The position numbers and the translations under genes are program-made. A DNA stretch of 64,000 nucleotides from Myxococcota bacterium (GTDB lineage Bacteria > Myxococcota > JAJVIH01). The stretch is taken from assembly GCA_022072125.1 (NCBI GenBank), contig JAJVIH010000016.1, forward strand, positions 229,205 to 293,204, in the 5' to 3' direction. Shown piece after piece: positions 35,621 through 38,769 of the stretch (its first letter is position 1; the number at the start of each line of letters is the position of its first letter). A model generated the notes under the pieces. It was not told the DNA's origin. It searched no databases and saw nothing but the letters and a program-made list of their open reading frames with translations.

Positions 35621-35633
35621 CAACGGCTGGACA

Positions 35634-35666
35634 ATAACATGATAATGATTATCATTATCATGTTAT
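35634..35666. promoter_or_regulatory. Fur box within a 33-bp perfect palindrome
   Basis: The core 35641-35659 reads GATAATGATTATCATTATC, which matches the 19-bp Fur consensus at all but one position. The symmetry runs further: 35634-35649 and 35651-35666 are 16-bp perfect inverted arms around a single T at 35650. It ends 9 nt before the feoB ATG. It is therefore expected to repress the feo operon when iron is plentiful. Confidence 0.9.
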
Positions 35667-35675
35667 GGGCCGTGC

Positions 35676-38159
35676 ATGGAACACCACTCCGCCAAATCCC
35701 AAGCCAGCCAGGATCCCAAACTGATTTTGGCGGGCAACCCCAATGTGGGGAAGTCCGTCTTTTTCGGCGCCCTGACGGGGAATTATGTCACCGTCAGCAA
35801 TTATCCGGGCACCACGGTGGAAGTCACCCGCGGCGCCGCCACTCTCGATGGCCGCCGCTGGGAAGTGATTGACACCCCAGGAACCAACAACCTGGTTCCC
35901 ATGAGCGAGGACGAGCGCGTCACCCGCGATGTCCTGCTGCATTCGCCCGGGGCCACGCTGCTTCAGGTGGCGGACGCAAAAAACCTGCGCCGGGGGCTGT
36001 TGCTGACGGTCCAGATCATCGAACTGGGCCTGCCCTCGGTGCTCAACCTGAACATGATTGACGAAGCGGAGGATAGAGGCATCTTTATTGATCTGGACGG
36101 CCTTTCCGCCGCGCTGGGAATCCCCGTCAACGCCTCGGTCGCCATCCGCCGCGAAGGGTTGGACGCCGCCCGCCAGAAAGTGATGGCCCCGCGGCGCGGC
36201 GATTTCCGGGTGGAGTATCCCGCCTCCGTTGAACGGGCGATTGAAAGGATCGCCTCCCATCTGCCGCCGGAGCCGTTTCGTGCTCGCGGACTCGCCGTGC
36301 TGGCCCTGTGCGGCGACACGGAATTGGACGCCTGGTTTGAACAGCAGGGCTTCCGGCAGGCGCTGGAGGCCGTCCGGGACGAGCGCGAACGCCTGAACGC
36401 GGAACTCAATGGCGGTGTTTTCGTCGCGATCAACATGGCGCGGCTGCGGGTGGTGGAACAACTGGTGGAGCGTTACTGGCGAAAACACGCTCCTGCCCAC
36501 GGCTTGCAACGGGGCGCGCCGGGACGCCGCGCGGATATACTGACGGCGCTGTTCTCCTCCGCCATCGCCCTGCTCGCCGGAGTGGCGGCCGATGGCGCCC
36601 TGGGCGTCCTGTCGGCCATGTGGGCGGAGCATCCGGAAGCGGCGGCGCGGCGGACGCTGGCCGATCCGCTGGACGAAATCAACACGGCGCATGTGCTGTC
36701 GCGTATCGCATCCGGCGATCTGTTCCAGCACGCGGGCGCCGGGGTGGGATTCCTGGTCATGGCCGTGGCGGGCTGGCTGATGATCCGCTCCCAACGCAGC
36801 GCCGCCGCCGGCCTGGCGAAATACTGGATGTTGCTCGCGCTGGCGTATCTGGTGTTTTTCGCGGCGTATTTCCCGGCCAAACTCGCGGGCTGGCACGGGC
36901 CATGGAATATCTGGCTGTTCCTGTTGACCTTCGCCGCATTGCTGATCGCGGGCTGGCGAGCGGGCGGAGAACGTGACGCCGAAGTGACCGGGCGCATCGG
37001 GCGCTGGGCCACCCACCCGGCGGCGGGGTTCGCGCTGCTCGCCGGGGTCTTGATCATTGTTTACAAGGTGGTGGGCGAATTTGGCGCGGGCACGGCGGTG
37101 GATTTTCTCGAGAACACCATCTTCGCCAGTTACATCACCCCGGGTATGTACCACGCGCTCGCGTGGTTATTGCCCGCGGGGCCGGTGGAGAACCTGATCA
37201 TCGGCCCGCCGCGCGACGATCTTTCCACGGGCGGCGGATTGCTGATCGGTCAATACGGCCTGGTGTCCATGGGGTTGTCTTACGCCATCGCCATCGTGCT
37301 GCCGATCGTCGGGGTGTTTTTCATCGCCTTCTCGATCATGGAAGACTCGGGTTACCTGCCCCGCTTGGCGGTGATGGTCAACCGCCTGTTCCGGCTGATG
37401 GGGTTGAATGGCAAGGCGGTGCTGCCGATGGTGCTGGGGCTGGGATGCGACACCATGGCGACCATGACCGCCCGCATCATGGAGACGAAAAAGGAACGCC
37501 TGATCGTCACCCTGCTGCTGGCGCTGGGGGTGCCGTGCAGCGCGCAACTGGGCGTGATTCTCGGCATGCTGGCGGGGCTGTCGCTGGCGCACACCCTGTG
37601 GTGGGTGGGAACCATCGTGCTGGTGATGATCGCCGTGGGCTGGCTGGCCGCGCGTTTGCTGCCCGGCGAATCCAGCGATTTTCTGCTGGAATTGCCGCCC
37701 ATCCGCCGCCCGCAGTTGTCCAATATCATCGTGAAGACGGTCGCGCGCATCGAATGGTACCTGAAGGAAGCCGCGCCGCTTTTCGTGCTGGGCACCTTCA
37801 TCCTGTGGGTGATGGACGCGGTCAACGCCCTGGCGGTGGTGCAGCGGATTGGCGAACCGGTGGTCACCGGCTGGCTGGGGCTGCCGGCGCAGGCGGCGGA
37901 GGCCTTTCTGATCGGTTTTTTGCGGCGGGATTTTGGCGCGGCCGGCCTCTTCGACATGTCGAACCGGGGAATGATGGACCCGCGGCAGGTGGTGGTGGCG
38001 ATGGTGACCATCACGCTCTTCGTGCCGTGCATCGCCAACTTCTTCATGATTGTGAAGGAGCGCGGCCTCAAGACCGGCGTGGCCATGACCGCGTTCATCT
38101 TTCCCTTCGCCTTCGGCGTGGGCGGCGTGATATACCGCCTGATGGGATGGCTCGCATGA
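35676..38159 (+). CDS. feoB: Ferrous iron transporter FeoB
   Basis: 827 residues. The N-terminal GTPase domain has G1 GNPNVGKSV, G2 NYPGTTVEV, G3 DTPGTNNL (the usual form is DLPGxYSL) and G4 NMID. The membrane half carries two Gate-like regions: LPMVLGLGCDTMATMTARIMETKKERL with LALGVPCSAQLGVILGML, and the later GFLRRDFGAAGLFDMS with VTITLFVPCIANFFMI. It imports Fe2+ across the inner membrane with GTP hydrolysis. A roughly 200-residue linker with two extra hydrophobic helices lies between the GTPase and the first Gate. The ribosome-binding site is weak (GGGCC). The stop overlaps the next ATG. Confidence 0.95.
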   Translation: MEHHSAKSQASQDPKLILAGNPNVGKSVFFGALTGNYVTVSNYPGTTVEVTRGAATLDGRRWEVIDTPGTNNLVPMSEDERVTRDVLLHSPGATLLQVADAKNLRRGLLLTVQIIELGLPSVLNLNMIDEAEDRGIFIDLDGLSAALGIPVNASVAIRREGLDAARQKVMAPRRGDFRVEYPASVERAIERIASHLPPEPFRARGLAVLALCGDTELDAWFEQQGFRQALEAVRDERERLNAELNGGVFVAINMARLRVVEQLVERYWRKHAPAHGLQRGAPGRRADILTALFSSAIALLAGVAADGALGVLSAMWAEHPEAAARRTLADPLDEINTAHVLSRIASGDLFQHAGAGVGFLVMAVAGWLMIRSQRSAAAGLAKYWMLLALAYLVFFAAYFPAKLAGWHGPWNIWLFLLTFAALLIAGWRAGGERDAEVTGRIGRWATHPAAGFALLAGVLIIVYKVVGEFGAGTAVDFLENTIFASYITPGMYHALAWLLPAGPVENLIIGPPRDDLSTGGGLLIGQYGLVSMGLSYAIAIVLPIVGVFFIAFSIMEDSGYLPRLAVMVNRLFRLMGLNGKAVLPMVLGLGCDTMATMTARIMETKKERLIVTLLLALGVPCSAQLGVILGMLAGLSLAHTLWWVGTIVLVMIAVGWLAARLLPGESSDFLLELPPIRRPQLSNIIVKTVARIEWYLKEAAPLFVLGTFILWVMDAVNALAVVQRIGEPVVTGWLGLPAQAAEAFLIGFLRRDFGAAGLFDMSNRGMMDPRQVVVAMVTITLFVPCIANFFMIVKERGLKTGVAMTAFIFPFAFGVGGVIYRLMGWLA

Positions 38160-38440
38160 TGACCTGTCCGCTGTGCAATCACTCTTTCGAACCTGCGAAG
38201 GACAACTGCCACCAGGGCTGCCCGGTGAATGCGTATTGCAACCTGGTGAAATGTCCCACATGCGGTTACGAAATGCCGCGCGACACCGCCCTTGTCCGGT
38301 GGGTCAAAAAATTGGTGCGCTACCAGGAAGAAGAAGGCGGCGCTTGCGCCAATCCCGATCACCATGTCCCGGCGCGGCGGCGGGAAGATGAAGAAGAAAA
38401 AGAACTTCCCTCAGGCGCTGGAGCGCGCGGACGCGCGTGA
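38156..38440 (+). CDS. Small Cys-rich zinc-ribbon-like protein of the feo operon
   Basis: ATG 38156 overlaps the feoB stop (ATGA), and its own stop overlaps the feoA GTG (GTGA), so it is embedded in the operon. The 94 residues start MMTCPLCNHSFEP and continue NCHQGCPVNAYCNLVKCPTC, giving Cys at 4, 7, 18, 22, 28, 33 and 36. Two CPxC knuckles frame a Cys-His-rich loop, suited to Zn or Fe-S binding. A similar CHxGCPxxxxCNLVxCPxCGYE module is known to me beside feo genes in other anaerobic lineages. The tail is charged and low in complexity. It is not the winged-helix FeoC. A metal-sensing or chaperone role is an inference. Confidence 0.8.
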   Translation: MMTCPLCNHSFEPAKDNCHQGCPVNAYCNLVKCPTCGYEMPRDTALVRWVKKLVRYQEEEGGACANPDHHVPARRREDEEEKELPSGAGARGRA

Positions 38441-38679
38441 GCCCCCCCGGCGGCACGTTCACCCTGGATCAGGCGCCCGCCGGAGAGCGCCTGATCGTGG
38501 TGTCGGTGGACGCCTCCCGGTCCGGGCGCATCGCCCGGCTGGCTGGCCTGGGTCTTGTTCCCGGATGCGAGTTGATTCTGCGCCAGCGCAAACCCGCGCT
38601 GGTGGTGGACATGGGTGAGACCACCCTGGCGTTGGACGAACTGGTCGCCCGCGCCATCATGGTCACGCCATTGGGTTGA
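38437..38679 (+). CDS. feoA: FeoA-domain protein
   Basis: 80 residues with the SH3-like FeoA fold: LDQAPAGERLIVVSVDA, then RIARLAGLGLVPGCELILRQRKPALVVDMGETTLALDELVARAIMVTP. It assists FeoB in ferrous iron uptake at the inner membrane. The start is GTG 38437, overlapping the preceding stop. The order feoB, Cys-rich gene, feoA is reversed from the common feoA-feoB order. Confidence 0.93.
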   Translation: MSPPGGTFTLDQAPAGERLIVVSVDASRSGRIARLAGLGLVPGCELILRQRKPALVVDMGETTLALDELVARAIMVTPLG

Positions 38680-38769
38680 GCCTGGTTCTCCGCCCGCTTT
38701 TCCCGCATTGATTGCCTCTGGGCCAACCCGGGCTTATGATTGATGGGTTGAACGGCGGCTTTCCGGGCG

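Follow-up and report, generated by a model that had tools for sequence, protein, structure and literature searches.

The 94-residue Cys-rich protein encoded between feoB and feoA in the window, as we call the whole 64-kb stretch of DNA that was analysed, is a member of a conserved family that has yet to be named. Every credible locus of this module, in Myxococcota and Chloroflexota, is a gene directly 3' of feoB on the same strand. Because the module co-occurs with feoB, adjoins it in two phyla and is fused to FeoA in some relatives, we regard its functional association with the Feo system as practically certain. It is very likely a functional component of the FeoB iron pump, and it is rather probable that it serves as a soluble accessory subunit acting with FeoA. 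The locus has the following features.

35634-35666, no strand assigned: perfect palindrome of 33 bp, with 16-nt arms and one central base
35628-35655, plus strand: promoter-like site TGGACA - 16 nt - TATCAT, 10/12 consensus positions (a consensus match only), overlapped by the Fur box
35641-35659, no strand assigned: predicted Fur box GATAATGATTATCATTATC, 18/18 non-central positions
35676-38159, plus strand: feoB, ferrous iron transporter, 827 aa (FeoB_N E 1e-48; TIGR00437 360 bits, over cut-off)
38156-38440, plus strand: FeoB-linked seven-Cys protein, zinc-ribbon-like, 94 aa (ORF and family alignment)
38437-38679, plus strand: feoA, 80 aa, GTG start (PF04023 E 2e-13)
38717-38732, plus strand: weak terminator-like hairpin 3' of feoA (hairpin count not above shuffles)

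Profile search found the G domain, Gate domains and FeoB_C in FeoB, and a gene with a FeoA domain adjoins it, as in a Feo operon. The gene order is feoB-cys-feoA and both joints are 4-nt overlaps (ATGA and GTGA); the GTG start of feoA shares bases with the stop codon of the Cys gene. The original prediction had described these three overlapping genes, and their positions are confirmed here. Judging from the overlaps, the Cys protein would be made together with FeoA and FeoB. No clear Shine-Dalgarno sequence was seen 5' of any of the three starts, and for this reason the feoB start is given as the likeliest, not as a proven one. A domain search identified feoA as the only FeoA domain in the window genome, and an Rfam search returned nothing.

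The palindrome, which had been noted earlier together with a Fur core, ends 9 nt before the feoB ATG and has a G+C content of 18%, versus 65% in the operon. Its core at 35641-35659 agrees with GATAATGATNATCATTATC with zero mismatches and is a perfect Fur box. No other site in the 64 kb has three or fewer mismatches, and 100 shuffles gave 0. The feo site is also the sole perfect Fur box in the 4-Mb genome, where a backwards control pattern gave 0, and the best of the sigma-70-like sites of the area lies across it. Three Fur-family genes are present in the window genome, one of them a full-length strong match, along with six further Fur-box-like sites at 2 or 3 mismatches (none for the control pattern). 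Four of these six sites (L100, L102, L103 and L105) adjoin genes that, by eye and with only the sequence to go on, read as TonB-dependent receptors, TonB and an imelysin-like protein; the sites by the imelysin-like and TonB-like genes are L103 and L105 (G000:C36:4879 and C73:3795). A Fur regulon in the window genome is likely because of the Fur-family genes and the further sites beside genes of this kind, and the 19-bp Fur box at the promoter would make feoB-cys-feoA a Fur-repressed ferrous-iron uptake operon. The proposed Fur control of feo is thus supported by a predicted box over the best promoter-like site, by the Fur-family genes and by other candidate sites next to such genes. A comparable Fur box was not found 5' of the feoB genes tested in relatives, except for a weak 13/18 match in L007, so that feo regulation seems to differ between lineages. 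One Chloroflexi MAG has an ORF that looks like a Fur-type repressor directly 5' of feoB and of a Cys-FeoA fusion gene (L008:3530-4030).

The core of the Cys protein consists of CxxC (Cys 4 and 7), C-x3-C-P-x4-C (Cys 18, 22 and 28) and CPxCGY (Cys 33 and 36). All seven Cys had been listed in the original prediction and are conserved; the total is eight, and the one that had been missed, at residue 64, is not conserved. It belongs to a tail stretch (CANPDHH, window 38345-38365) which is not conserved in relatives either, and in which Cys64, His69 and His70 are possible extra metal ligands. In an 11-member alignment the seven Cys are invariant. With 22 members Cys 4, 7, 22, 33 and 36 are invariant and Cys28 is nearly so, while the position of Cys18 varies (C-x3-C vs. 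C-x2-C spacing). The family signature is CxxC ... C-x2/3-C-P-x4-C-x4-C-P-x-C followed by G-Y, and the window protein fits it. No Pfam or NCBIfam family passed its cut-off in the window protein. Our searches of the open literature turned up no description of the family, though one may exist.

Profile searches for the module covered 195 genomes of Myxococcota, the window's phylum going by named relatives, and 400 of Chloroflexota. In Myxococcota a search with the single sequence gave six matches, including the window's own and one spurious; the 11-member alignment found the module in 28 of the 195 genomes, and the 22-member alignment gave 31 matches, of which two were rejected and G031 was accepted as a divergent member. 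Near-copies among the Anaeromyxobacter loci make the independent count lower than the raw count. In Chloroflexota 20 of the 400 genomes matched, one spuriously, leaving about 19 credible. A scan of all genome contigs with the single sequence found nothing (the patterns were too strict), and the scan with the alignment succeeded. Plasmid searches found no module. Several matches were rejected: G203 (Chloroflexota, E 9e-4); L006 and L069, and L071, the one match of a viral scan, all three with no feoB match alongside; G052, which has an internal stop and whose genome is missing from the list of those with FeoB_C; and G134, on a different contig from its feoB. Selenocysteine was considered for three Chloroflexota loci with a TGA apparently inside the match (L055, L057 and L058) and dismissed, their frames being open through all module Cys; in L055 a stop lies just 5' of the module start.

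The module's first codon in the match lies 0 to 333 nt beyond the end of the FeoB match. FeoB_C is present in 89 of the 195 Myxococcota genomes, and all 28 genomes with a strong module are among these. Several genomes of the Anaeromyxobacter family combine one module with two FeoB genes; the G035 module, at 2644267, adjoins the FeoB at 2644908 and not the one at 3804003, which has no module in its downstream stretch. The proposed check of co-occurrence over feo neighbourhoods therefore came out in favour of the seven-Cys module, which recurs beside feoB in two phyla, and the conservation next to feo on which the prediction depended is present. As a rule the module is followed by FeoA or by a DtxR-like regulator with a FeoA domain at its end. 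A single ORF encodes the module together with a FeoA domain in at least five loci: L008 (147 aa), L047, L052 and L081, with FeoA over the Pfam cut-off in each, and L053, a close copy of L052.

The linked FeoBs are almost entirely of one FeoB subfamily, a statement that rests on tree topology: in a tree of FeoB C-terminal parts they group on a long, fully supported branch. A clade nested in this group (L077, L084, L088 and L089) has no detected module, which likely reflects loss or an ancestral state and indicates that a FeoB of the module-linked subfamily can work without the module. Directly 3' of feoB, three of the four (L077, L084 and L088) encode a DtxR-like protein that has a FeoA domain. 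L067 (G214) has a short, C-terminally truncated module by a divergent FeoB (28% identity), placed just outside the module-linked group in the same tree, and a nearby ORF with ferredoxin-like Cys motifs. On plasmid pPRO1 of Pelobacter propionicus (L072), feoB lies near a heavy-metal P-type ATPase and adjoins a metal-dependent regulator; by the annotation no gene separates feoB from the regulator, hence there is no Cys module.

The Cys protein is comparable to FeoC, a winged-helix protein, in that FeoC is a small, usually Cys-containing cytosolic product of feo operons and a proposed regulator of FeoB. It differs in its zinc-ribbon-like arrangement of Cys and gave no match to PF09012 (FeoC) at E up to 10. 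FeoC was found neither in the window genome nor in any module-bearing Myxococcota genome searched, which supports the earlier suggestion that the Cys protein takes FeoC's place in the operon. Since FeoC is rare in Myxococcota anyway (2 of 195 genomes), its absence is weak support for replacement. FeoC, the PF12669 peptide and Cys-rich tails of FeoB are all described in a survey of how Feo evolved (PMC8749426). The PF12669 peptide is a short, Cys-rich membrane peptide encoded just 3' of feoB and prevalent in Firmicutes and Bacteroidetes (PMC8749426). The Cys protein shares its size, Cys richness and gene position, but it has no apparent membrane segment (judged by eye), a different Cys pattern and a different range of phyla, and it has no match to the PF12669 profile. 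FeoI of Stenotrophomonas (feoABI) is likewise an extra small feo-operon protein, one that contacts FeoB; unlike the Cys protein it is a predicted single-pass inner-membrane protein (PMC9047314).

We propose that the product of the middle gene is an accessory subunit of one FeoB subfamily, soluble and located in the cytosol. The knuckles at Cys 4/7 and 33/36 would most likely coordinate a single Zn or Fe within a zinc-ribbon/rubredoxin-like fold. Cys 18, 22 and 28 of the loop would form another thiolate site, an incomplete one, which could accommodate Fe(II) or an Fe-S cluster and may be iron- or redox-responsive. Sensing of iron or redox state by the protein is conceivable, though on balance doubtful. 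Sensing and structural explanations are versions of how the accessory subunit would act, and their likelihoods overlap.

The first such explanation, tentative as it is, is an Fe-S sensor like FeoC, in which an oxygen-labile [4Fe-4S] (or [3Fe-4S]) cluster would be bound by the three loop Cys, and the protein would protect FeoB or mark it for degradation depending on oxygen and iron. The operon position and the Cys-rich loop are consistent with it, and there is a precedent in E. coli FeoC, whose Cys are needed for full function and which forms a [4Fe-4S] cluster anaerobically; the Cys motif of FeoC can be of the type Cx4Cx2Cx5C (PMC8749426). In many members an extra Cys beside Cys33 (VICCPSCGY) makes a four-Cys loop, but this residue is K or R in the window protein and in many relatives. 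The two CPxCG knuckles also look like Zn sites, and there is no match to the winged-helix FeoC.

It is slightly less likely that the protein is a purely structural zinc ribbon, aiding the folding or docking of FeoA with no part in sensing. The fusions to FeoA would fit this explanation as well as the main proposal, and so would the fold, which is likely, not proven, to be zinc-ribbon-like. Two CxxC knuckles are present as in LysW and rubredoxin. An AlphaFold2 model built from 14 sequences is moderately confident (pLDDT 70) and is best around the two knuckles. Its best match in a fold search against the PDB, the LysW zinc ribbon, is weak (E 0.2, prob 0.92), and a profile search gave rubredoxins at E 0.03 and also zinc fingers, matches that are common for CxxC motifs. 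A structure model of the Cys-FeoA fusion was too poor to use (pLDDT 61). Unlike zinc ribbons and rubredoxin, the module has three more conserved Cys between its knuckles and no family model over cut-off; Cys 18, 22 and 28 are conserved beyond the need of one structural site.

An improbable explanation is that the module partners the DtxR-like regulator and co-regulates transcription, not transport. In most Myxococcota relatives the next gene encodes such a protein, with an iron-repressor metal-binding/dimerisation domain and a FeoA domain, and in L051 a protein of this kind continues the reading frame of the module (an internal start is possible). DNA binding by these neighbours is unproven, because two examples scanned had no match to the Pfam DtxR helix-turn-helix. 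No such regulator exists in the window genome, where the stand-alone FeoA accounts for the sole FeoA domain, and the module is nonetheless retained; here the FeoA-domain search is what counts, an empty DtxR helix-turn-helix search being no test of absence. Several members are, in addition, fused to FeoA alone. That the ORF between feoB and feoA is no gene but an open frame by chance can be dismissed, given homologues with the same Cys pattern in the same place in two phyla and the FeoA fusions.

As an accessory subunit, the Cys protein would most likely work with the FeoA (SH3-like) domain, in trans in the window via translational coupling and in cis in those relatives where the two form one chain. 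Both would bind FeoB at its cytosolic G-protein side, tuning or stabilising the transporter in line with iron or redox state. FeoA is reported to stabilise GTP-bound FeoB (PMC8980893), and the passages of that study consulted on fusion architectures make no mention of a Cys-ribbon-FeoA fusion. In this way a protein unrelated to FeoC would carry out what has been suggested as FeoC's job in other systems. Taken as a whole, the chances are about even that the family is a further, unnamed class of Feo accessory proteins: soluble zinc ribbons binding metal or Fe-S which, with FeoA, would form an iron/redox-responsive regulatory unit on a distinct Myxococcota/Chloroflexota FeoB subfamily, and which would have evolved independently of FeoC.

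Many bacteria have no FeoC. The family defined here is absent from Pfam and NCBIfam. As a conserved partner physically fused to FeoA in some lineages, it offers a direct handle on FeoA-type action on FeoB, and its Cys module is also a handle on how FeoC-less systems might sense iron.
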